From NCBI GenBank assembly GCA_018242525.1, contig JAFEBS010000055.1, forward strand, positions 161,556 through 225,555: DNA of 64,000 nucleotides, written 5' to 3'. Below, one piece after another: positions 25,731 through 45,451 of this stretch. The stretch is from Planctomycetota bacterium. GTDB lineage: Bacteria; Planctomycetota; Planctomycetia; Planctomycetales; Planctomycetaceae. Numbering within the stretch: position 1 is the first letter of the stretch; each line of letters starts with the position of its first letter. The notes under the pieces were generated by a model. The model was given only the letters and a program-made list of their open reading frames with translations. It had not been told where the DNA came from and did not search any database. The translations under genes and the position numbers were made by a program.

Positions 25731-27833
25731 TTACAGCCGGATCTGCTCATTCGCTGTCAGTGCCGCTGGCGGAGCCTCTTCACCGGCCACGGCTTCCAAC
25801 AGACCGTCTTTGTCGAGACTGTCGAATTTCCGCAGGGTGCCGAAGTCCAGTTGGGTCAGTTTTTCGATCTGGCTGACACGAACCTGGAACGTCTTTGCCG
25901 CATCTTCAGCGGTCGACTCAAGAGCGGCCAACAGGTCTTCCTGGCTTACCAGAAAACCTGCTGAGCCAAGCGACCCGTCGTCGCGGACAAATGCGACGAC
26001 TTTCCAGAACCGGGTCGGAACCTGGACGCCGCTGAAATCTGGATCGTCCTTTCCGAAGATGGGGCCAGTGAAAATCGTGATCCGGCGATCGTTCTTGTTC
26101 GCATTGTCGAGCAGGTAATTTTCCAGGCCCTGCCACAGGGCTTTCCCCTGATTGAAACGCGAATGTTGCGGGCTGCAGTTTGTGAAATGGAACGTGTCGT
26201 CATTGGCGGATTTGGCTATGGCAACGGATCGTCCCCAGGCGGGATCCAGCCGGCGCACCAGGTGCCCCCGATCAAACGGCTTTCCGTACCATTCGTTCCC
26301 GATCTGCAGGCTTTTGTCGACGCGGTGGTCGAAGATCCAGCGGTCTTGTTCCCGTTTGCCGAGGTTTTGTTCCTGTGTTCCATCGATGTTGACGGCGGTA
26401 AAGAACGCCAGCCGACGCTGCTTGTTCATGACCACGCTGTAGTGGTGGTACTGCAATTCATATGGGGCACCGGTTCCTGGTTCGTTGTTGATCGCGGCAG
26501 CCTTCACTTGCGTCGTCGTCAACACGGGCAATGGAACACTCAGCTTTCCACCCCCCAGGAAATTCGGGTTGTACCCTTCACGTTTACTGTAATCCGTGTC
26601 GATCTCGACCTTCTCCTGAGCCGCGGGTGCCACACTGCCCGTAGTTGTGGCCGCGGTTGTCGGAGTTCCCAGGCGGACGGTCACCTGCAATGGAATCGTC
26701 CAGGTGACGCTGCCAGAGTCCTCCGCCGGTTTGGAAAGAGTGACTGAATTCTGAACGGGTTGTGACATGGTTTCTCCTTCGGTACGAGCCCACGCAGCGG
26801 CCCACTCGGAAGTTCCGTCAACGGTGCCTTGAAAGTTCAGTGCGGCATCGACAACGCGCGAATCGCGCGCCAGCTCGAAGGTGGGGACGGCGTAGTTGGC
26901 TTCCAGGTAAACGCCAGCAAAATGCAAGCCGATGATCGTTCCCGTTTTGACGTCGATGACGGCCGACCCGGAGTTGCCCCCCAGGGTTGAACTGTCGTGG
27001 GTCATCGCCATCACTTCGCTTTCAAAACTGCGGACTTTCGCCCGCCCCCGGATCTTCCCGGGTTGCATTCGCTTGACGCCAAAGATCGTGCCGAAGACCC
27101 GCTTCTGGACGTCGGCATCATTGCGGAAGTCCTGGGCCGGGTATCCCACCACCACGACATCCTGATCGACCATGCCATTCGGATCGGTGACGGATAGCGG
27201 CAACGGCCTGGCAGTTGCAGGCAGACCTTCCATACGCAGCAGTGCCATGTCCCAGAACGGATGGACCATGACCACGTCAGTCACCCGGATCAGCGTCCCC
27301 GGGTCGGGTTCAGGCATCCCGTTTTCCCGACGAAAGTCGACCAGCGATCCCCCCGCGTGGAAACGCACATGTGTCCCCACGCCGTCGGAGAACAGCTTCG
27401 CCACATGACGATTGGTCATCATCAGGTTCGGACCCACAACAAACCCGGTTCCGCCATAGGGGATATTTGGGGTCAGCGGCAGTTCCAGGCGGCCGATTGA
27501 AGGGAAAAGAGGCTCCAACCGCTGGTGGATTTCCGGAGCGTTCAAATGTTTCCAATCGTCCATCGGTACGGTTTCGTAGGCGTTCGCCTTGATGAAAACG
27601 ACCGGTCGCTTGTCCGGGAGTACAATCGCTTCCAGGCCGAACAGTTCGTCCGATGTCAACGATTTGCCCAGCTTGAGCTTCTCGAGTGCAGACGCGGTCG
27701 GATCGATTTCCAGAGCCTCAAATCCGCCCTCCAATCCGACCTGCGATTGGGGCAGGGAGATCGATTCCAGTCCATCCTTGGCGACTTGAGTCAGCATGGC
27801 CTTGAGGCGTTTGGCGCGTTCGTCCAGATCCAT
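25731..27833 (-). CDS. Trypsin-like serine protease fused to DNA/RNA non-specific endonuclease
   Basis: 700-residue two-enzyme protein. Residues ~1-115 form a helical N-terminal domain (LEPLFPSIGRLELP) of the kind found before proteases in conflict-related proteins. Residues ~120-330 are a trypsin/V8-like protease with all triad residues: His143 in MTNRHVAK, Asp195 in PFWDMALLR and Ser288 in GGNSGSAV. A Thr/Ala/Pro linker follows. Residues ~455-660 are a non-specific nuclease domain with the DRGH motif (Asp521-His524), the metal-ligand Asn552 in FTNCSPQ and Glu571. No signal peptide is visible, so it probably acts in the cytoplasm. GAGGA lies 6 bases before the start. It has no obvious operon partner. 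The arrangement suggests proteolytic control of a toxic nuclease; this is inference. Confidence 0.9.
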   Translation of the reverse strand: MDLDERAKRLKAMLTQVAKDGLESISLPQSQVGLEGGFEALEIDPTASALEKLKLGKSLTSDELFGLEAIVLPDKRPVVFIKANAYETVPMDDWKHLNAPEIHQRLEPLFPSIGRLELPLTPNIPYGGTGFVVGPNLMMTNRHVAKLFSDGVGTHVRFHAGGSLVDFRRENGMPEPDPGTLIRVTDVVMVHPFWDMALLRMEGLPATARPLPLSVTDPNGMVDQDVVVVGYPAQDFRNDADVQKRVFGTIFGVKRMQPGKIRGRAKVRSFESEVMAMTHDSSTLGGNSGSAVIDVKTGTIIGLHFAGVYLEANYAVPTFELARDSRVVDAALNFQGTVDGTSEWAAAWARTEGETMSQPVQNSVTLSKPAEDSGSVTWTIPLQVTVRLGTPTTAATTTGSVAPAAQEKVEIDTDYSKREGYNPNFLGGGKLSVPLPVLTTTQVKAAAINNEPGTGAPYELQYHHYSVVMNKQRRLAFFTAVNIDGTQEQNLGKREQDRWIFDHRVDKSLQIGNEWYGKPFDRGHLVRRLDPAWGRSVAIAKSANDDTFHFTNCSPQHSRFNQGKALWQGLENYLLDNANKNDRRITIFTGPIFGKDDPDFSGVQVPTRFWKVVAFVRDDGSLGSAGFLVSQEDLLAALESTAEDAAKTFQVRVSQIEKLTQLDFGTLRKFDSLDKDGLLEAVAGEEAPPAALTANEQIRL

Positions 27834-34576: not shown

Positions 34577-34754
34577 ACCCACTCCCCCGGCAATTCCCAG
34601 TTCCCTGGAGCGGACGCAGAATGTAGTTCCCCACACGCAGTCAATGACGCGACGCCGCTCCCATCAATTCTCGCTTACGTTTAGGGCTTGCGTCAACCTC
34701 GGCAATCGTAGGGAATTCCGAAAGGTGGGGTTGGCACCTTTGATCGCTGATTTC
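34577..34754. other. Upstream region of the PSD1 gene
   Basis: Left part of a 734-base gap (34577-35310). It should contain the - strand PSD1 promoter. Repeat B1 occupies 34755-34882. The rest, to 35310, shows no convincing gene. Confidence 0.4.
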
Positions 34755-34882
34755 GTGAGCGGCGCGGCACTAGCCGCGGGTGCATTATCACTCGTACCCG
34801 AAGAACCCGCGGCTCGCGCCGTGCGGCTCACAATGCAACCCAAAGCGTCAGCGAGGCATCGAGTTAATTCCCGCCCTCCCTC
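34755..34882. repeat. Large hairpin repeat, copy B1
   Basis: Palindromic core with arms at about 34755-34781 and 34805-34831 (several mismatches), followed by a 50-base single-copy flank ending GCCCTCCCTC. The same core and flank recur at 45179-45312, where the flank is on the other side. Confidence 0.85.
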
Positions 34883-35983: not shown

Positions 35984-36244
35984 GTGACCGATGCCACAGC
36001 CACAACTGATACCACCGCCGTTCGAGAAGTTCTGGCTCAACACGGCCGGTTGACCGTGGATATCCAGACCCTGGATGAAGATTTTGATCTGTACGGTGCC
36101 GGACTGACGTCGCTGGCCACCGTCGGGATCATGCTCGCGCTGGAAGATCGATTTGAGATCGAGTTTCCAGAATCGATGCTCAGCCGTAGTACGTTTCGCA
36201 GCGTCTCGGCCATTGCGGAAGCGGTGGCTCGACTCGCCGGTTGA
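35984..36244 (+). CDS. Acyl/aminoacyl carrier protein
   Basis: 86-residue carrier protein. The phosphopantetheine attachment motif is LYGAGLTSL with Ser43, replacing the usual DSL. It is followed by the helix-III pattern VGIMLALEDRFEIEFPESML and SVSAIAEAV. The GTG start at 35984 has GGAG 9 bases upstream. It is the first gene of the six-gene set and the natural acceptor for the amino acid:[carrier protein] ligase at 37573-38502. It needs a phosphopantetheinyl transferase, which is not in the window. The Thr-Ser variant at the attachment site suggests a dedicated carrier rather than the fatty-acid ACP. Confidence 0.88.
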   Translation: MTDATATTDTTAVREVLAQHGRLTVDIQTLDEDFDLYGAGLTSLATVGIMLALEDRFEIEFPESMLSRSTFRSVSAIAEAVARLAG

Positions 36245-36355
36245 TTTCCAGCACGCAACGCCTTCCCGACGCCCCGCAATCATCACCAGCCATGACGTGA
36301 CCTCCTGTTTCCTGATTCCCGGACGCTCCCCGTTTCGTCCCTTCGAGAGTTCCCC

Positions 36356-37570
36356 ATGATGCCAGTCGCAGACCTGCCTGCCGTATCGACCGCATCCGCC
36401 ACCGACGCGGTTGATTTTGATGAATTGCTCAATCGAGTCCATGTCATTGGCCGGGATGTCCTGGCGGTGCATGCGGCGGACGTCGATCGCCTGGCGCGAT
36501 TTCCCGTCGAATCGATCGATGCGATGAAGGAAGCCAGACTGCTCAGCGCCTATGTCCCCGTCGAATACGGCGGCATGGGTCTGAACATTGTGGAGATGGC
36601 TCGAATCTGCGAGGCGCTCGGCCAGTATTGCGGTTCGTCCGCCATGATCTATGCGATGCACTGCATCCAGGTCGCCTGCGTCGTCCACCACGCTCAAGAA
36701 TCGTCCTACTTCCGTCACTATCTGCGGGATCTGGTGACCGAACAACGCCTGATGGCTTCCGCCACGACGGAAATCGGCACCGGCGGAGACCTGCGATCCA
36801 GCGTCTGTGCCATTGAAGTCAACGGTGATTGCTTCACACTGACCAAGAAGGCCCCCGTCATTTCATACGGCGAATACTCCGATGACATCCTCGTCACCTG
36901 CCGCCGGGCACCCGATGCTGCCGCGAGTGAGCAGGTGCATGTGATGGTCAAGCGGGGTGAATACCACGCAGAACCGTTATCGACGTGGGATACGATGGGT
37001 TTTCGTGGGACCTGTAGTTCCGGGTTTACGCTGACGTCGCATGGCGCAACCGACCAGATTCTGCCGACTCCATTCAATGACATCCTGTCACAAACGATGC
37101 ATCCCTATTCGCATATCGTCTGGGGCGCGCTCTGGACGGGGATTGCGGCTGACGCCGTCAACCAGGCGCGTGCCTTCGTTCGGGCCGAAGCCCGCAAGAC
37201 GCCCGGTGAAACGCCGATTTCGGCAATTCGCCTGGCGGAAGTCGATCTGGTCCTGCAGGAAATGCGGCACAACGTCTACAGCCTGGCCCGCGAATATCAC
37301 GAATTGCTGTCGAATAATGCCGGCGAATCCATTCACGGCTTCGGCTTCTCGATCCGCACCAACAACCTGAAGCTGTCCTGTTCCCAACGCATCGTCGAAA
37401 TCGTCGGCCAGGCGCTGTTGATCTGTGGCATCCAGGGCTATCGCAACGATTCCAAGTTCAGCCTGTCGCGCCACCTGCGGGATTCCTACGGGGCGGCACT
37501 GATGGTCAACAATGACCGGATTACCAAACTTAACGCCACCATGCTGCTGGCACACAGAGAGGGACATTGA
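36356..37570 (+). CDS. Acyl-CoA dehydrogenase-like flavoprotein
   Basis: 404-residue member of the acyl-CoA dehydrogenase fold. The N-terminal helical domain shows YVPVEYGGMGL. The flavin-binding beta domain shows ASATTEIGTGGDL and TKKAPVISYGEYSDDILV. The C-terminal helical domain contains RHLRDSYGAALMVNN. The usual catalytic Glu is not obvious. In this setting it may oxidise a carrier-bound aminoacyl thioester, as related flavoproteins oxidise prolyl-carrier proteins. That role is inferred from context. It ends 2 bases before the ligase gene. Confidence 0.9.
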   Translation: MMPVADLPAVSTASATDAVDFDELLNRVHVIGRDVLAVHAADVDRLARFPVESIDAMKEARLLSAYVPVEYGGMGLNIVEMARICEALGQYCGSSAMIYAMHCIQVACVVHHAQESSYFRHYLRDLVTEQRLMASATTEIGTGGDLRSSVCAIEVNGDCFTLTKKAPVISYGEYSDDILVTCRRAPDAAASEQVHVMVKRGEYHAEPLSTWDTMGFRGTCSSGFTLTSHGATDQILPTPFNDILSQTMHPYSHIVWGALWTGIAADAVNQARAFVRAEARKTPGETPISAIRLAEVDLVLQEMRHNVYSLAREYHELLSNNAGESIHGFGFSIRTNNLKLSCSQRIVEIVGQALLICGIQGYRNDSKFSLSRHLRDSYGAALMVNNDRITKLNATMLLAHREGH

Positions 37571-37572
37571 CA

Positions 37573-38502
37573 ATGTGCATTGCGACCATGAGTTTGAGTG
37601 AAGCTTATCAGCACTGTCAGGATCAGTTGCTCGAAGCCGGTTTGCTGATTTCCTCAGGCGTCCCCGGCCTGTACGGCTTCAGCGGTGTGTTCGAAGATGT
37701 GGTCGAACGGTTCGAAGCCGCGGTCACCCGACGTGCCAAGCCATTGAAGGCGGAAGTCATGCGGTTTCCGGCCATCCTGAATCGCAAGCACTACCTGCAA
37801 ACCACGCACATTGAGAATTTTCCTGATCTGATGGGCTCGGTCCACAGTTTTACCGGGAACGAACACGATCACGCCAAACTGCTGGACAAGCGGGCGCGCG
37901 GCGAAGACTGGACAACCAGCCTGACTCCGACTGACGTCATGTTGACTCCGGCCGCCTGTTATCCCCTATATCCGACGGCAACCGGCACCACCCTGACCAG
38001 CGAAGGTCGGCTCGTCGACTTGCGTTCCTTCGTCTTCCGTCATGAACCATCGATCGATCCAGCCCGGATGCAGATCTTCCGCCAGCGGGAATTTGTCCGG
38101 ATGGGAACCGCTGAGCAGGCGCTGGAACACCGGGAATACTGGTTGCAGGTCGGTCAGGAAGTTTTGAACTCGGTCGGCCTGGCCGTGCAGAGTGTCGTGG
38201 CCAATGATCCCTTCTTCGGTCGTGGTGGCCGCATGATGGCTGCCGCCCAGAAGGAACAGGATCTGAAGTTTGAGCTGGTGCATGCCGTGGCAACGTCGGA
38301 AAAGCCGACGGCCATCACGTCGTGCAATTATCACCTGGACCATTTCGGGCACGCATTCGACTTCAAGACCCCCGATGGAAAGTACGCTCACACGGCGTGC
38401 ATCGGTTTCGGTCTGGAGCGAATTGCCCTGGCCCTGTTCATGACTCACGGTTTTGACCCGGATCACTGGCCTTCAGACGTGAAGAGTGTACTCGCACTAT
38501 GA
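37573..38502 (+). CDS. Amino acid:[carrier protein] ligase (class II aaRS-like)
   Basis: 309-residue homologue of seryl-tRNA synthetase catalytic domains without a tRNA-binding domain. This family activates a small amino acid with ATP and loads it on the phosphopantetheine of a carrier protein. Class II marks are HEPSIDPARMQIFRQREFVRMG (motif 2) and GFGLERIALALF (motif 3). The zinc ligands of the family (Cys, Glu, Cys) appear as Cys129, Glu173 and Cys276. Start 37573 follows GAGAGGG; a TTG two codons earlier would overlap the previous gene. Its stop overlaps the next start (ATGA). The amino acid is probably Gly or Ala, from the known members. Confidence 0.92.
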   Translation: MCIATMSLSEAYQHCQDQLLEAGLLISSGVPGLYGFSGVFEDVVERFEAAVTRRAKPLKAEVMRFPAILNRKHYLQTTHIENFPDLMGSVHSFTGNEHDHAKLLDKRARGEDWTTSLTPTDVMLTPAACYPLYPTATGTTLTSEGRLVDLRSFVFRHEPSIDPARMQIFRQREFVRMGTAEQALEHREYWLQVGQEVLNSVGLAVQSVVANDPFFGRGGRMMAAAQKEQDLKFELVHAVATSEKPTAITSCNYHLDHFGHAFDFKTPDGKYAHTACIGFGLERIALALFMTHGFDPDHWPSDVKSVLAL

Positions 38503-39479
38503 CGAAACAGGTTTTCCCGCTGAGCCCCGCTGGCTACCAGCGACACTTGATTCATACGAGAGAACGTCACTGGGCGGAAACGAACTGTTACGTCGACGTC
38601 TGGATCGAGTTGCTGCATGCCTGGGGCTTTGATCCCCTCGCCGCCATGCCATTCACGGTGGGCATCGACTTCGAGGGGGATCAGTGGACCTTCTTCAAAT
38701 TCCCGCACGCGGATCTGCGGGACCTGTTTGGATTGGACGTCCAGGAACTGGCGATCTGGCAGCCGTTGGTGGAACATGTCGACGAACAGGTTGGTCGCGG
38801 TCGGCCGGTGCTGGTCGAACTCGATTCCTTCTACCTGCCGGACACCGCCGGAACCGCTTACCACCTGCAACATACCAAGTCGACGGTTGCAGCCATTGAC
38901 ATCGATGTTGCAAACCACCGGCTGGGATACTTCCACGGACAGGGGTATTACGAACTGAGCGGCGACGACTTCGCAAGCGTATTCCGAATGGCGGGGCCGA
39001 ATGATCCGGCGATGCTGCCGCCCTATGTGGAATTCGTCAAACGCCGTCCCATTCGGGGAACGACAGGAGGTGGATTAGTGGAAACCTCACTGTCGCTCCT
39101 GAAGCAGCAACTGCAACTGATCCCCGACGTGAATCCGTTTGAAAAGTTCAAACCGCGATTTGCCGCCGATCTGGACTGGCTGACCAACGAATCTCTGGAC
39201 GTGTTCCATCAATACTCGTTTGCCACGCTGCGTCAGTTTGGCGCCTGCTATGAAATGGCGGCACTTTACCTGGATTGGCTGGGAGCTCACGATGTTGCCG
39301 GCCTGGAACTGGCACGAGATGCCTTCAACCAGTTGTCGACGGGAGCCAAGACGTTGCAGTTCCAATTGGCCCGGGCAATGGCTCGCAAAAAGCCGCTCAG
39401 CCTGACACCGATTGATGACATGGCCAGCACCTGGCAAACCGCGATCAGCCATCTGACCTCGCGGCTTCTGGCAACTTGA
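38499..39479 (+). CDS. DUF1839 family protein
   Basis: 326 residues, no known activity. The N-terminal half has conserved-looking phrases HWAETNCYVDVWIELLHAWGFDP, GDQWTFFKFPHADLRDLFGLDVQEL and VELDSFYLPDT, with HTKSTVAAIDID. The second half is helical. The family tends to occur next to amino acid:[carrier protein] ligases, so it may take the aminoacyl group from the carrier. The Cys in NCYVD and the His/Asp residues are candidates for catalysis. The 4-base overlap with the ligase gene shows translational coupling. No signal peptide is visible. Confidence 0.85.
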   Translation: MTKQVFPLSPAGYQRHLIHTRERHWAETNCYVDVWIELLHAWGFDPLAAMPFTVGIDFEGDQWTFFKFPHADLRDLFGLDVQELAIWQPLVEHVDEQVGRGRPVLVELDSFYLPDTAGTAYHLQHTKSTVAAIDIDVANHRLGYFHGQGYYELSGDDFASVFRMAGPNDPAMLPPYVEFVKRRPIRGTTGGGLVETSLSLLKQQLQLIPDVNPFEKFKPRFAADLDWLTNESLDVFHQYSFATLRQFGACYEMAALYLDWLGAHDVAGLELARDAFNQLSTGAKTLQFQLARAMARKKPLSLTPIDDMASTWQTAISHLTSRLLAT

Positions 39480-39516
39480 AACAGCCTGTGACTGTCATCT
39501 GGCTGGACACTACTCA

Positions 39517-42042
39517 ATGGCTGCGGACTACGAAGAATCAGCAATCCCATCCCAGGGCTCGTGGAGTCCCTGGCATTGCTCCGCGCATCCTCCCGGATCG
39601 ATCACGGATCCGTCACAATTGCCGCGGGAAAGTAAAGACTGGATTCCTGCCACGGTCCCTGGAACCGTCGCCGGCGACCTCGCGGCGATTGACCGCTGGA
39701 CGTTTGAGAGCCCGGCAGAGATCGACAAAGACGACTGGTGGTTTCGGTCCACTCTGCAGGTCCCGATCGAGGCGATGTCCCGAATGGCGTGCCTGATCTT
39801 TGAGGGCCTGGCGACGCTTGCCGAAGTCTGGCTGAACGGTGAATTGCTGCTGACCAGCGACAACATGTTTCGCAGCCACCGCGTGGACGTCTCGTCCCGC
39901 CTGCGTGGCGACAACGAACTCGTCCTCGGTTTTCGATCGGTGACCGAAAATCTCAAGCAAAAGCGGCCGCGACCGCGATGGAAGACGAATCTGGTGAACA
40001 ACCAGCAATTGCGCTGGCTCCGCGGAACATTGCAGGGACGAATCCCCGGCTGGTCGCCTCCCGCTCCGGCGATCGGACCCTGGCGTGGAATTCGACTGGA
40101 AATCCAGCCCGTCTCCCTTCATTCCGTTCATCTGAAGTCGCGCCTCGACAACGGCTGCGGCATTGTCACGTTCGACGCCAGCGTGGTCAGTGCCGGTTCG
40201 ATCGAATCCGCCTCATTGCGAGTTGGAACTCACGTTGTACCGCTGCGACTGTTACGGAAACTGGAAGGCAATTCATTACACGGCGAATTGCGGATCGACC
40301 AGCCGAATCTCTGGTGGCCGCACACCCATGGTCAACCGGACCTGTATGAATGCGAAGTGGTTGTCGAATCCGGAGGCCGCAAGGATTGCTTTCCTTGCGC
40401 GCCGATTGGATTCCGCCAGTTGGAGATTGAGACCACCGATGGCTTCCGGGTGCGGGCGAACGGACAGTCGATCTATTGTCGCGGTGCCTGCTGGACCGTC
40501 TGTGACATCCTGACACTGTCAGGCACGGAAGAGCAATTGCGGCACGACTTGACCCTTGCGCGCGACGCGGGTGCAAACATGCTGCGCGTCGGTGGCACGA
40601 TGGTCTACGAGAGTGACACGTTCTACCGCCTGTGCGATGAACTCGGGATCCTCGTCTGGCAGGACTTCATGTTTGCCAACATGGACTATCCGGTCGATGA
40701 CGTAGCCTTTCGAAAGAATGTGGTAGCCGAGGCAACCGAACAACTCACGCGCCTGGCCGCTCATCCTTGCGTTGCAGTGTACTGTGGGAACAGCGAGATC
40801 GAACAGCAGGCGGCGATGCTGGGAATGCCGCGAGAAATGTGGACCAATTCCTGGTTTACGCAGGATCTGCCTGAACTGGTTCGCCACCTGCACCCGGGGA
40901 CCGGTTATGTCCCGTCGACTCCCACGGGCGGAGTTCTACCGTTTCAGCCGAATACCGGGCTGACACACTATTACGGAGTGGGTGCCTACTTGCGCCCGGT
41001 CACCGATGTGCGTCGTTCGGACGTCAAGTTCACTCCAGAATGCCTGGGGTTTTCGAACGTTCCGGAAGCGGTGACGATCGATGCGATCATGCAGGTATCG
41101 AATGCGGTCACACACGATCCCCGCTGGAAGCGCCGCGTGCCGCGGGATTCCGGTGCCGGTTGGGATTTCGAAGATGTCCGCGATCACTATTTGCGGGAAG
41201 TCTACCTGGTCGATCCCGTTCAACTGCGGTCCTGGGACAGTCCGAAATATCTGCAACTGAGCCGGCTGGTCACCGGCGAAATGATGCAGCAAACGTTTTC
41301 CGAATGGCGCAGCGGCCACGGGAGCAATCGGGGTGGACTGGTCTGGTTCTACAAGGATTTATGGCCTGCCGCCGGTTGGGGGATCCTCGATTCCACAGGA
41401 ACCCCCAAGGCCGCGTACTACGCATTGAAGAGAATCTGGAAAAGTCGCCAATTGGTACTGACCGACGAGGGACTGAACGGATTGCAACTGCATCTGGTCA
41501 ATGAGGGTGGCGACGCCTGTGACGGATTCTTGGAAGTCCAGTTGCTGAAGGGACCTGATGTTGTCATTGCCCGGCAGGAAATTCCCGTCCAGATCGAGGG
41601 AAGAGCGTCTCGGACACTGAGCGCCGACGAAATCCTGGGCGGGTTTTACGATGTCAGCTATGCCTATCGATTTGGCCGTCCTCACCACGATGTCGTCGTG
41701 GCGACGTGGTTCGATGCGGACCGGAATGTCGTCAGTGAGGCGTTTCATTTTATCCGACGCGGAATTCCCGCACTGGAACGAAACGTGGTTCTGGAAACCT
41801 CGGCGGCACCAGCGGCCAGTGGCGACTATCGCATCACATTGCGCGCGGATCGCTTCCTGCAGAGCGTTCAGGTCTCGGCGTCAGGATTTCTGCCAGACGA
41901 CAACTACTTTCATCTCGCGCCGAATCGGACGAAGTCGGTCACGTTCCGTCCCCGTCAGCCAGCGTCTCGATTCAAAGCGATGGTCGAAGCCCTGAACATG
42001 GATGCCAGCCACATCGTCACTGTTCGGCCTACAACCACCTAG
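39517..42042 (+). CDS. Glycoside hydrolase family 2 protein, beta-mannosidase-like
   Basis: 841-residue GH2 enzyme. The N-terminal sugar-binding domain (WWFRSTLQV; FEGLATLAEVWLNG) is followed by Ig-like domains and the TIM barrel. The barrel holds WQDFMFANMDYP, the acid/base Glu427 in YCGNSE and the nucleophile Glu508 in FTPECLGFSN. Both catalytic residues are therefore present in beta-mannosidase-like positions. No signal peptide is visible, so it may act in the cytoplasm. Its place between DUF1839 and a hydrolase in a carrier-protein operon is unusual and points to a sugar-containing product. Substrate is uncertain: mannoside or glucosaminide. Confidence 0.9.
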   Translation: MAADYEESAIPSQGSWSPWHCSAHPPGSITDPSQLPRESKDWIPATVPGTVAGDLAAIDRWTFESPAEIDKDDWWFRSTLQVPIEAMSRMACLIFEGLATLAEVWLNGELLLTSDNMFRSHRVDVSSRLRGDNELVLGFRSVTENLKQKRPRPRWKTNLVNNQQLRWLRGTLQGRIPGWSPPAPAIGPWRGIRLEIQPVSLHSVHLKSRLDNGCGIVTFDASVVSAGSIESASLRVGTHVVPLRLLRKLEGNSLHGELRIDQPNLWWPHTHGQPDLYECEVVVESGGRKDCFPCAPIGFRQLEIETTDGFRVRANGQSIYCRGACWTVCDILTLSGTEEQLRHDLTLARDAGANMLRVGGTMVYESDTFYRLCDELGILVWQDFMFANMDYPVDDVAFRKNVVAEATEQLTRLAAHPCVAVYCGNSEIEQQAAMLGMPREMWTNSWFTQDLPELVRHLHPGTGYVPSTPTGGVLPFQPNTGLTHYYGVGAYLRPVTDVRRSDVKFTPECLGFSNVPEAVTIDAIMQVSNAVTHDPRWKRRVPRDSGAGWDFEDVRDHYLREVYLVDPVQLRSWDSPKYLQLSRLVTGEMMQQTFSEWRSGHGSNRGGLVWFYKDLWPAAGWGILDSTGTPKAAYYALKRIWKSRQLVLTDEGLNGLQLHLVNEGGDACDGFLEVQLLKGPDVVIARQEIPVQIEGRASRTLSADEILGGFYDVSYAYRFGRPHHDVVVATWFDADRNVVSEAFHFIRRGIPALERNVVLETSAAPAASGDYRITLRADRFLQSVQVSASGFLPDDNYFHLAPNRTKSVTFRPRQPASRFKAMVEALNMDASHIVTVRPTTT

Positions 42043-42053
42043 CAGGTGTCCCC

Positions 42054-43928
42054 ATGTCTGCCGCCAAAGTCAAACCTCAGGATTACAGCCGCGCCGTATC
42101 GGTCTGCACGGCAACGGAGGTGGAACGAACGGCCTTTTATTTAAACAGCCGTGGCGATTCCCTGTTTGCCTGGCTGCACCGCCTGTCGGATCAACCGCTC
42201 GGCCACCATGGGATCCTGATCTGCCCGCCGATTGGATTCGAGCAACTGCACGCGCATCGCGCGCTGCGACACCTGGCGGATTCACTCGCCCGTTCCAACT
42301 TTCCGACGGTGCGTTTCGACTGGCACGGCACGGGTGATTCGGCGGGCGATGACATGCAGCCGGGTCGCTGCCAGACGTGGCTCGACAATGTCCGTGACAG
42401 TGTGCGCTGGATGAAGAATCACCTGGGCTGCCAGCAAGTGAGTGTCGTTGGCCTGCGAATCGGAGCCACTCTGGCGGCCCTCGCGTTGAACGAAGAGGAC
42501 ATTGAGAACCTCGTGCTGTGGGCTCCGGTGACCAACGGCCGGGCCTTTGTTCGCGAACTCAACGTCATCGACATGTTGTCCGAGGCCCGTCCGCCGGAAA
42601 CGATCGCTGCTGGCGTGATCGATGCGGCCGGCTTCCGACTGAGTGCAGAAACGTCGGCGGATCTGTCGAAACGCAGCCTGCTGCAGTCAAAACCGCATTG
42701 CCGTCGAATTCTGGTCGCGTGGCGCGACGACACCCCGGCCGACCTGCGCGTCATCGATCACTTTCAGAATCAGGGAGTTTCCGTCGATCTGAAGACGCTC
42801 ACCGGTGTGCCACAAATGCTGGTGGAGCCCCACAAAAGCCAACTGCCGGTCGCGGCGATCGGTGAGATCACGAACTGGTTCGAGCAGCATGCTGCAAACG
42901 AGCCTGTGGGCGTGCCCGATCATGAGTGGATTCCCACGGACGATTCGGCCCATCTCGACTCGCTGGCCACCGGATTCGAAGCCGATGCGTTTCGTGAGAC
43001 AGTCTGGCCAATCTGCCAGTCACCCAACCTGTTTGGCATCCTGAGTCAGCCAAAGTCGGAGCCGGACACGGAACTTCCGATCATTGTCCTGCTGAATGCA
43101 GGCGCGGCATACCGCATTGGCCCGGGCCGGATGAATGTCGAACTGTCACGACACTTTAACCACCTCGGTTTTCGCTGCCTGCGAATGGATTTGTGCGGCC
43201 TGGGCGATAGCGTTCCAGAACACGTGTCGGAGGAAAACGATTCCTATGCGGCGACCGCGTTCCGCGACATCGCCATGACCCTGCAAGCCCTGCGGGAGAA
43301 ATGGAGTGGCCGCCGGTTTGTATTGATGGGACTCTGTTCCGGTGCGTATGCGTCATTTCAGTCGGCAGCGCAATTCACGGATGCCGACCTGGTGGAATGC
43401 ATCCTGATAAACCCGTTGACGTTTTTTTGGCAGGACGGAATGACGCTGGAGACGGCGCCGACCGTCGAGTTGATTCGCGAGCATTACTATTTCCATTCCG
43501 CGCTCCAGCCGGGTAAGTGGTTCAAGCTGCTGTCCGGCCGCAGTCACATTGGCATCGCAGGTGCGTTGCGCATGGCCGCACAGAGACTCGGTTTGACACG
43601 GTCGGAGCGGAAACGGCTTGTGGCAGGTTCGTGCCATGGCTGCCAGACGGGACCTGCGCATCCGGCGCAAGAAGACCTGACAGGCGACTTGAAGCGCATC
43701 GTGGCTTCCAAACGCCAATTGACGATGGTCTTTTCCCAGTCCGATCCTGGATACAGCATCCTGACCAGTCAGGCGGGCCGGCAGGTCCGCCGGATGCTCC
43801 GCAGCGGACAAATGCAGGTGAACCTGATCGAGGATGCCGACCACACGTTTTCACGCCACGCCGCCCGGCAGAAACTGATGGACACGTTGGCTCGGCATTT
43901 GTTGGAACGATATCGACCAAGTCGCTGA
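42054..43928 (+). CDS. Two-domain alpha/beta hydrolase with altered nucleophiles
   Basis: 624 residues forming two alpha/beta-hydrolase domains. The first (~50-280) has GLRIGA at the nucleophile elbow, with Arg135 replacing Ser, so it is probably inactive. The second (~340-620) has GLCSGA with Cys428 at the nucleophile place, plus Asp564 (FSQSDPGY) and His597 (DADHTF). The two elbows resemble the two hydrolases known from exosortase-A gene clusters, here fused. It is last of the six-gene set, 11 bases after the GH2 gene. It may release or transfer the carrier-bound group. No exosortase is in the window. Confidence 0.85.
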   Translation: MSAAKVKPQDYSRAVSVCTATEVERTAFYLNSRGDSLFAWLHRLSDQPLGHHGILICPPIGFEQLHAHRALRHLADSLARSNFPTVRFDWHGTGDSAGDDMQPGRCQTWLDNVRDSVRWMKNHLGCQQVSVVGLRIGATLAALALNEEDIENLVLWAPVTNGRAFVRELNVIDMLSEARPPETIAAGVIDAAGFRLSAETSADLSKRSLLQSKPHCRRILVAWRDDTPADLRVIDHFQNQGVSVDLKTLTGVPQMLVEPHKSQLPVAAIGEITNWFEQHAANEPVGVPDHEWIPTDDSAHLDSLATGFEADAFRETVWPICQSPNLFGILSQPKSEPDTELPIIVLLNAGAAYRIGPGRMNVELSRHFNHLGFRCLRMDLCGLGDSVPEHVSEENDSYAATAFRDIAMTLQALREKWSGRRFVLMGLCSGAYASFQSAAQFTDADLVECILINPLTFFWQDGMTLETAPTVELIREHYYFHSALQPGKWFKLLSGRSHIGIAGALRMAAQRLGLTRSERKRLVAGSCHGCQTGPAHPAQEDLTGDLKRIVASKRQLTMVFSQSDPGYSILTSQAGRQVRRMLRSGQMQVNLIEDADHTFSRHAARQKLMDTLARHLLERYRPSR

Positions 43929-43942
43929 TCCATTGAGTTTCA

Positions 43943-44252
43943 TCGTTCCCAAGCTCCAGCTTGGGAACGCCCGTCTTTGAAGCTCCGCTTCACAGTCCCA
44001 AGAACACCCCTACATCCAGTCAGTCACCATGTCAACCAGTCCAGGTTGGCGAGCACAGTTGCGGGAGTTGGAGTATCTCCAATTCACTGGATCGTCAACA
44101 TCGCCGCGTGCAACCGGCTTGGTGTGCGTACATTCCTGTGACTGCCATATCATTTTGTCACTCAGGGGCGTCATCGAGTGATCTCCTGCCGAATACCGAT
44201 CGCGAAGCGGAGCTTCGAAGACGGGCGTTCCCAAGCGGGAGCTTGGGAACGA
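43943..44252. repeat. Inverted-repeat element of about 310 bases (GTTCCCAAGC family)
   Basis: Two inverted copies of a ~48-base sequence face each other: 43943-43990 (CGTTCCCAAGCTCCAGCTTG onward) and 44205-44252. Each contains its own small palindrome. The ~210 bases between them have no evident gene. Together with R4 this fills most of the gap 43929-44382. Confidence 0.8.
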
Positions 44253-44255
44253 GAA

Positions 44256-44301
44256 GATTCAGTGCCCTCCAAAGGGTCAGACACCTTTTGCCTCAGGCTG
44301 T
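44256..44301. repeat. Truncated CTAG-type repeat, copy R4
   Basis: Right half only of the R2/R3 element (GCCCTCCAAAGGGTCAGACA then CCTTTTGCC and CAGGCTG). It abuts the inverted-repeat element, which may have inserted into or deleted the other half. Confidence 0.7.
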
Positions 44302-45178: not shown

Positions 45179-45312
45179 GTGAGCGAGGGAGGGCGGGAAT
45201 TAACGCGATGCCTCGCCGACGCTTTGGGTTGCATTGTGAGCCGCACGGCGCTAGCCGCGGGTGCATTCTCACTCGTACCCGAAGAACCCGCGGCTAGCGC
45301 CGTGCGGCTCAC
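45179..45312. repeat. Large hairpin repeat, copy B2
   Basis: Perfect 27-base-pair stem (45236-45262 with 45286-45312) with a 23-base loop, preceded by a ~57-base flank. B1 (34755-34882) has the same loop orientation but the flank on the opposite side. It lies upstream of the ggt gene; 45313-45451 shows only the probable ggt promoter region. Confidence 0.88.
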
Positions 45313-45451
45313 AAAGTAAGTGCCATTGGGCTGCCAGCGCGGGGCCGTTCGTGGAATTCTCTTGTTCATCCGCGCCCCTGGCGATGTCGGCGCTTAGAAT
45401 GTTGCCCTCCTGGTGCGACAGCGTTTTGAGACCCCGCAAGGTGAATGGACA

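Follow-up and report, generated by a model that had tools for sequence, protein, structure and literature searches.

Gene cluster at the locus

The window analysed here is a stretch of 64,000 nt from a Planctomycetota bacterium (GCA_018242525.1, contig JAFEBS010000055.1, positions 161,556-225,555, forward strand). This report concerns six open reading frames (ORFs) at 35984-43928 of the window, all called on the + strand in the order carrier - flavoprotein - ligase - DUF1839 - GH2 (glycoside hydrolase family 2) - double hydrolase:

35984..36244, +, aminoacyl/acyl carrier protein, 86 aa, GTG start, phosphopantetheine site Ser43; PF00550, PRK07081
36356..37570, +, flavoprotein of the acyl-CoA dehydrogenase (ACAD) fold without the catalytic Glu, 404 aa; PF02771, PF00441; Val384, His102, His253
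37573..38502, +, amino acid:[carrier protein] ligase, seryl-tRNA synthetase (SerRS)-like, 309 aa; PRK07080; zinc site Cys129, Glu173, Cys276
38499..39479, +, DUF1839 protein, papain-like fold, 326 aa; PF08893; Cys30, Thr129, His146
39517..42042, +, GH2 enzyme of beta-mannosidase type, 841 aa; PF22666, PF17753 (Ig_mannosidase); Glu427, Ser426, Glu508, Gly359
42054..43928, +, fused double alpha/beta hydrolase, 624 aa; halves TIGR03101-like (N) and TIGR03100-like (C)

A first-pass annotation, made from the letters of this DNA alone, had described six co-directional genes and assigned them to families, and profile searches of all six proteins gave matching assignments. It had also put down four of the five junctions as overlaps or gaps of 2-11 bases; the spacings in gene order are 111, 2, -4, 37 and 11 bases, so that three of the junctions, and not four, are tight.

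Conservation and distribution of the module

A scan of the GTDB contigs with a ligase alignment yielded 80 loci, which are the best ligase matches, and the conservation described here applies to these nearer relatives rather than to the whole ligase family. Gene order was counted with profiles for all six proteins, for which only 63 loci have enough flanking sequence. The order carrier - flavoprotein - ligase - DUF1839 - GH2 is kept in 59 of these 63, the double hydrolase is present in the retrieved stretch of 55, and 36 have the plain six-gene order of the window. The loci come from at least seven phyla (Planctomycetota, Pseudomonadota, Verrucomicrobiota, Acidobacteriota, Myxococcota, Chloroflexota and Abditibacteriota), and since the gene order is kept across them the grouping exceeds chance. 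The six genes are a real, conserved module and a new member of a known system. The co-occurrence in relatives that the first-pass annotation proposed to look for is therefore there; its further suggestion, that a glycosidase and a fused hydrolase would make this a new variant of the system, has to be abandoned because both are standard parts of the cluster and the glycosidase link was published in 2010.

The publication in question is a note in proof (Biology Direct 2010, 5:48, PMC2922099) that linked a SerRS-like ligase to a carrier, a redox enzyme, the conserved but uncharacterised protein Atu2574, a glycosidase and liposaccharide genes. Its authors predicted that an amino acid is coupled to an amino sugar through an amide bond, the uncharacterised protein being the ligase and the redox enzyme a monooxygenase; a cell-surface sugar derivative was predicted too. 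From its position in the cluster, Atu2574 is taken to be a putative DUF1839 protein. As set out in that note in proof, the 2010 neighbourhood has the same carrier, redox enzyme, uncharacterised protein and glycosidase as the window and the same proposed chemistry; the note in proof differs in calling the redox enzyme Rossmann-fold and in leaving the double hydrolase unmentioned, and the solved relatives of the uncharacterised protein that we have used were released from 2022 on. No experimental follow-up of the prediction was found in the open-access papers searched. The arrangement itself was already known, and what is new is the fold match of the DUF1839 protein to CcbD, AziU3 and CtaG.

Annotated plasmids of Azospirillum, Shinella, Rhizobium, Mycetohabitans and Caballeronia carry the gene set, with the hydrolase present or absent. 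The pairwise divergences of the cluster genes are correlated (rho 0.55-0.84), as expected of a module that stays together, with shared host descent also contributing. Within the Planctomycetota the distribution is sporadic: 2 of 294 sampled genomes have a strong ligase match, the genome of the window being one of the two, and DUF1839 occurs in 12 of 170 genomes of the window's family. In the ligase tree the window groups with Schlesneria and other planctomycetes (support 100/92), near the Verrucomicrobiota; several phyla are split in this tree, which allows for horizontal transfer without being proof of it.

Some loci have a different content. A Priestia megaterium plasmid (L016, 1854-15677) encodes a holo-acyl-carrier-protein synthase, a carrier, a flavoprotein, a ligase, a drug/metabolite (DMT) transporter, an ATP-grasp protein, an alanine permease and an alanine racemase, with a D-Ala-D-Ala ligase nearby and neither DUF1839 nor GH2; it resembles a cluster for an alanine-derived product. 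On a Tsukamurella plasmid (L015, 5737-15906), also with neither DUF1839 nor GH2, the ligase and carrier are accompanied by a phosphopantetheinyl transferase, several glycosyltransferases, an exopolysaccharide (EPS) glycosylphosphotransferase and a double-hydrolase-like protein. The module of a Rhizobium gallicum plasmid (L010, 1-14425; 40 kb as L111) is immediately preceded by nifHDKENX-fdxB and followed by a gene with the annotation 1-aminocyclopropane-1-carboxylate (ACC) deaminase, and an Abditibacteriaceae metagenome-assembled genome (MAG; L038, 11062-12414) has a GH99-like gene, below the Pfam cut-off, between DUF1839 and GH2.

The ligase, the carrier and predicted amino acid activation

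The carrier matches PF00550 with 31.6 bits and the NCBIfam family PRK07081 with 101 bits (cut-off 72), and the ligase matches PRK07080, also of NCBIfam, with 432.4 bits (cut-off 357). The best PDB match of the ligase is Bradyrhizobium Bll0957 (3mey/4h2w); the 309-residue window protein aligns to SerRS over the catalytic core only, and there is no tRNA-binding domain. The zinc site and the attachment serine, both noticed at first reading, are invariant, the former (Cys129, Glu173 and Cys276) in 90/90 ligases and the latter (Ser43) in 86/86 carrier homologues. Like the Bll0957-type ligases with their carriers, the window pair thus lies above both family cut-offs with its functional residues kept; no difference was found in the ligase and carrier themselves, and what the window cluster adds is further genes. 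By homology it is a well-founded prediction, made for this locus from the outset, that the ligase activates an amino acid and loads the carrier with it.

The DUF1839 protein and a proposed amide transfer

The DUF1839 protein matches PF08893 with 393 bits and, weakly, the Pfam family BtrH_N (E 0.059). A sequence search against solved structures produced nothing meaningful, and it was the fold search alone that gave matches. An AlphaFold2 model, built from 40 window and locus sequences, has a mean predicted local distance difference test score (pLDDT) of 94.8, and Foldseek with this model reached E < 0.001 only for AziU3, CtaG and CcbD. VIA-align placed CcbD first (Z 19.5, rmsd 3.6, 289 residues), followed by AziU3 (Z 18.6) and CtaG (Z 17.4), with the next group falling to Z 7.8. 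The likeness to the lincosamide condensing enzymes CcbD/LmbD and to CtaG extends over the whole chain (Z 17.0-19.5, 271-289 residues) and includes an active-site Cys. All 40 DUF1839 sequences have Cys30 and His146, and 39 have Thr129; the family was classed in 2023 as papain-like with a Cys-Thr/Ser-His site (PMC10318531).

In CcbD the Cys accepts a carrier-bound proline, which is then transferred to the amino group of a thiooctose (PMC12945683), and the enzyme shares with the role that we propose for DUF1839 a carrier-bound aminoacyl donor, although the donor would here be loaded by an aminoacyl-tRNA synthetase (aaRS)-like ligase and not by an adenylation (A) domain. Another enzyme of papain-like fold, BtrH of butirosin synthesis, works between an acyl carrier protein and an aminoglycoside (PMC10318531), but the DUF1839 match to it is not significant by sequence and no solved BtrH is among the structural matches. 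On the strength of the model, the DUF1839 protein is proposed to be an aminoacyl-carrier:amine condensing enzyme. Because its predicted fold matches CcbD, AziU3 and CtaG, the amide transfer predicted in 2010 is backed from an independent direction and now has structural support. The first-pass idea of a transfer to a glycan draws support from the same match to CcbD and CtaG and, in some lineages only, from exopolysaccharide neighbours.

The GH2 enzyme and the double hydrolase

The GH2 enzyme carries PF22666 and PF17753, and its closest relatives are beta-mannosidases (300 bits to 5n6u). Both of the catalytic Glu residues that had been recognised in it, the acid/base Glu427 and the nucleophile Glu508, are invariant among 71 GH2 proteins. 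The GH-A Asn-Glu doublet of characterised mannosidases has become Ser-Glu in 70 of these 71 homologues, and the position of the mannosidase Trp is taken by Gly359 in the window and by Gly in 48/71. No signal peptide is evident by N-terminal hydropathy. In the 2025 division of GH2, Ser-Glu together with Gly is characteristic of subfamily GH2_14, for which room for substituted sugars was proposed; the Ser change of the doublet is also found in glucosaminidases (PMC12243196), and CsxA has Ser468 (PMC6566704). Compared by signature residues only, the window enzyme is like GH2_14, with its Ser-Glu, its Gly in place of His/Trp and its few signal peptides, although the members characterised so far are only weakly active, mainly on artificial galactosides, and inactive on mannobiose (PMC12243196). 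We infer that the Ser-Glu and Gly pocket would suit an amino sugar substituted at C2.

Both halves of the double hydrolase score below the cut-offs of their nearest families, the N half with 128.7 bits against 168.45 for TIGR03101 and the C half with 105.0 against 202.75 for TIGR03100. The fusion read from the sequence is borne out by these two halves and by a model with two alpha/beta hydrolase domains, the matches of which are mainly to the N half and to general esterases and lipases. The first description does need amending in one detail, as the N half has lost its nucleophile (Gly-Leu-Arg-Ile-Gly; Ser at 135 in 0/46) and the C half uses a Cys (Cys428 in Gly-Leu-Cys-Ser-Gly; Cys428 and His597 in 46/46, Asp379 invariant), a nucleophile that would suit a thioester substrate. 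Each half resembles one of the exosortase A-associated hydrolases 1 and 2 (TIGR03100, TIGR03101), from which the window protein differs in being fused, in its scores, in an N half that lacks the nucleophile and in having no exosortase nearby. A linkage to exosortases was set aside: the window's genome has two, neither on the window's contig, and there is none on any module contig of the panel. A phage origin was likewise rejected, the sole PHROGs match among the three proteins scanned being a weak and generic one to the hydrolase. In a Kangiellaceae MAG (L025, 425-5367) the module is preceded, just upstream, by genes for an A-domain-like ligase, a carrier, a second ACAD and a pair of unfused hydrolases from these same families, an arrangement which indicates that these hydrolases keep company with carrier-based activation.

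The flavoprotein

The flavoprotein matches PF02771 and PF00441. In an alignment to solved ACADs, the position of the catalytic Glu of medium- and short-chain acyl-CoA dehydrogenases (MCAD/SCAD) is occupied by Val384; it is Val or Ile in 79/79 homologues and Glu in none. The position used by isovaleryl-CoA dehydrogenase (IVD), by our reading of the alignment, is also without Glu, with Ser, Ala or Thr at 252 and an adjoining His253 that is invariant (79/79), as is His102. Profile scores are 85.6 bits for butyryl-CoA dehydrogenase and, for amino-sugar N-oxygenases, 75.7 (DnmZ) and 74.2 (KijD3-type); this gap of about 10 bits does not discriminate between a dehydrogenase and a group D flavin monooxygenase. 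The desaturation on the carrier that had been suggested for this protein is not supported, because the dehydrogenase Glu is missing throughout, and classical desaturation seems unlikely; an oxygenation, as guessed in 2010, fits the residues better.

Proposed pathway and alternative explanations

Carrier-protein-based aminoacylation of an amino sugar is the best explanation that we can offer for the six-gene set, and on balance a probable one. With ATP the ligase would activate a small amino acid, of which Gly and Ala are the likely candidates, and load it on the phosphopantetheine of the carrier, as others have shown for homologues. The flavoprotein would oxidise the tethered aminoacyl group, its missing and replaced residues making an oxygenase more likely than a desaturase. 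The DUF1839 protein would accept the aminoacyl group on Cys30 and transfer it to an amino sugar, whose amine would become an amide; CcbD works in this way in celesticetin synthesis. The GH2 enzyme, presumably cytoplasmic, would remove a beta-linked sugar from a precursor or from the product, and the Cys hydrolase, the weakest part of the scheme, might hydrolyse or transfer a thioester- or ester-bound acyl group as an editing or late step. In several lineages the product may enter exopolysaccharide; elsewhere, this planctomycete included, it could be a free metabolite.

A polysaccharide connection is suggested by the most frequent flanking families, which are flippases, glycosyl-1-phosphate transferases and glycosyltransferases. 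In two loci that were examined, a flippase, O-antigen-ligase/polymerase-type and Wzc-type genes lie beside the module, and among 35 genomes 7 have the polysaccharide glycosyl-1-phosphate transferase family PF02397 (Bac_transf) no more than 10 kb from the ligase, where 0.33 would be expected (P = 3.5e-8 if independence is assumed, an optimistic value because the genomes were hand-picked, after a first inspection of the flanks, and are related rather than phylogenetically independent).

That selection of genomes is one of several points that weigh against the proposed scheme. The exopolysaccharide link is absent in most loci, and no polysaccharide gene of that kind is among the ten genes scanned around this window. 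AziU3, a close structural match, is an enzyme of the azinomycin pathway that takes part in aziridine formation and is not known to form amides. The DUF1839 protein has only 11-12% sequence identity to CcbD, LmbD and CtaG, and as the support is a fold match at this level we infer, rather than read off, its reaction. Its site is Cys-Thr-His as against Cys-His-Glu in CcbD (PMC10318531, PMC12945683), so its catalysis may differ, and because this triad seems to differ in type from that of CcbD we have not filed DUF1839 as a member of the CcbD family. A literature search found no biochemistry on any DUF1839 protein.

Alternatively, the tethered amino acid could be turned into a free antimetabolite or signal; DUF1839 would then act on that amino acid or on an amine other than a sugar, and the role of the GH2 enzyme would be limited to unmasking a sugar-protected form. 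The Priestia plasmid, where the activating genes and the flavoprotein keep company with alanine genes in place of DUF1839 and GH2, would agree with this, as would the non-sugar pathways of AziU3 and CtaG and the apparent lack of a signal peptide in the GH2 enzyme; yet the conserved neighbours of the module include no recurrent exporter or resistance gene, and a GH2 gene in 59/63 loci is a higher frequency than one would expect of an accessory unmasking enzyme. We regard this alternative as unlikely. Less likely still is a dlt-like role in which the six genes, wherever they occur, add an amino acid to exopolysaccharide or another surface glycan. The EPS glycosyl-1-phosphate transferases, flippases, polymerase-type genes and Wzc near the module point that way, together with the relationship of the hydrolase halves to hydrolases of EPS loci and the cell-surface sugar derivative predicted in the 2010 note in proof (PMC2922099). 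However, only a minority of genomes have such genes close to the module, the module contigs are devoid of exosortases, and simple hydropathy reveals no evident N-terminal signal or anchor in any of the six window proteins.

The remaining alternative leaves aminoacylation of an amino sugar in place and changes one step: the flavoprotein would be a true dehydrogenase that desaturates the aminoacyl-carrier, as RedW/PigA do with a prolyl-carrier, using a base at a non-canonical position. Its ACAD fold, and a best profile match to butyryl-CoA dehydrogenase, with DnmZ and KijD3, oxygenases of nitrososynthase type, some 10 bits lower, speak for such an activity, but with Glu absent from both known positions and the invariant His253 next to the second of them, we think it improbable.

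Features around the cluster

A palindromic dispersed element of ~130 bases lies on both sides of the cluster (34747-34882 and 45185-45320). It has 83 matches in the genome, a count in which palindromic copies are often scored on both strands, and because of this abundance the flanking copies are weak evidence of mobilisation and were set aside as a sign of it. An inverted repeat of 61 bases (89%; 43931-43991 / 44204-44264) follows immediately downstream of the hydrolase gene. At 25731-27833 there is a gene for a 700-aa protein with a trypsin-like domain and a DNA/RNA non-specific endonuclease domain.

Biological significance

What carrier aminoacylation by aaRS-like ligases does physiologically has been an open question since 2010, and its role was again called unknown in 2022 (PMC9437257). 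The match of DUF1839 to CcbD/CtaG turns a guess based on gene neighbourhoods into a specific and cheap test, namely the formation of an amide from an aminoacyl-carrier and an amino sugar, and because culturable bacteria (Azospirillum, Mesorhizobium and Rhizobium) have the gene set, the product can be sought directly. Going further, and as a speculation to which we attach only a small probability, the module could represent a widespread pathway in which an aaRS-like ligase replaces the A domain, lincosamide-like amides of an amino acid and an amino sugar are made, and the GH2 enzyme releases the finished molecule. If this were true, a class of small aminoacyl-sugar metabolites would have been overlooked in soil, freshwater and plant-associated bacteria.

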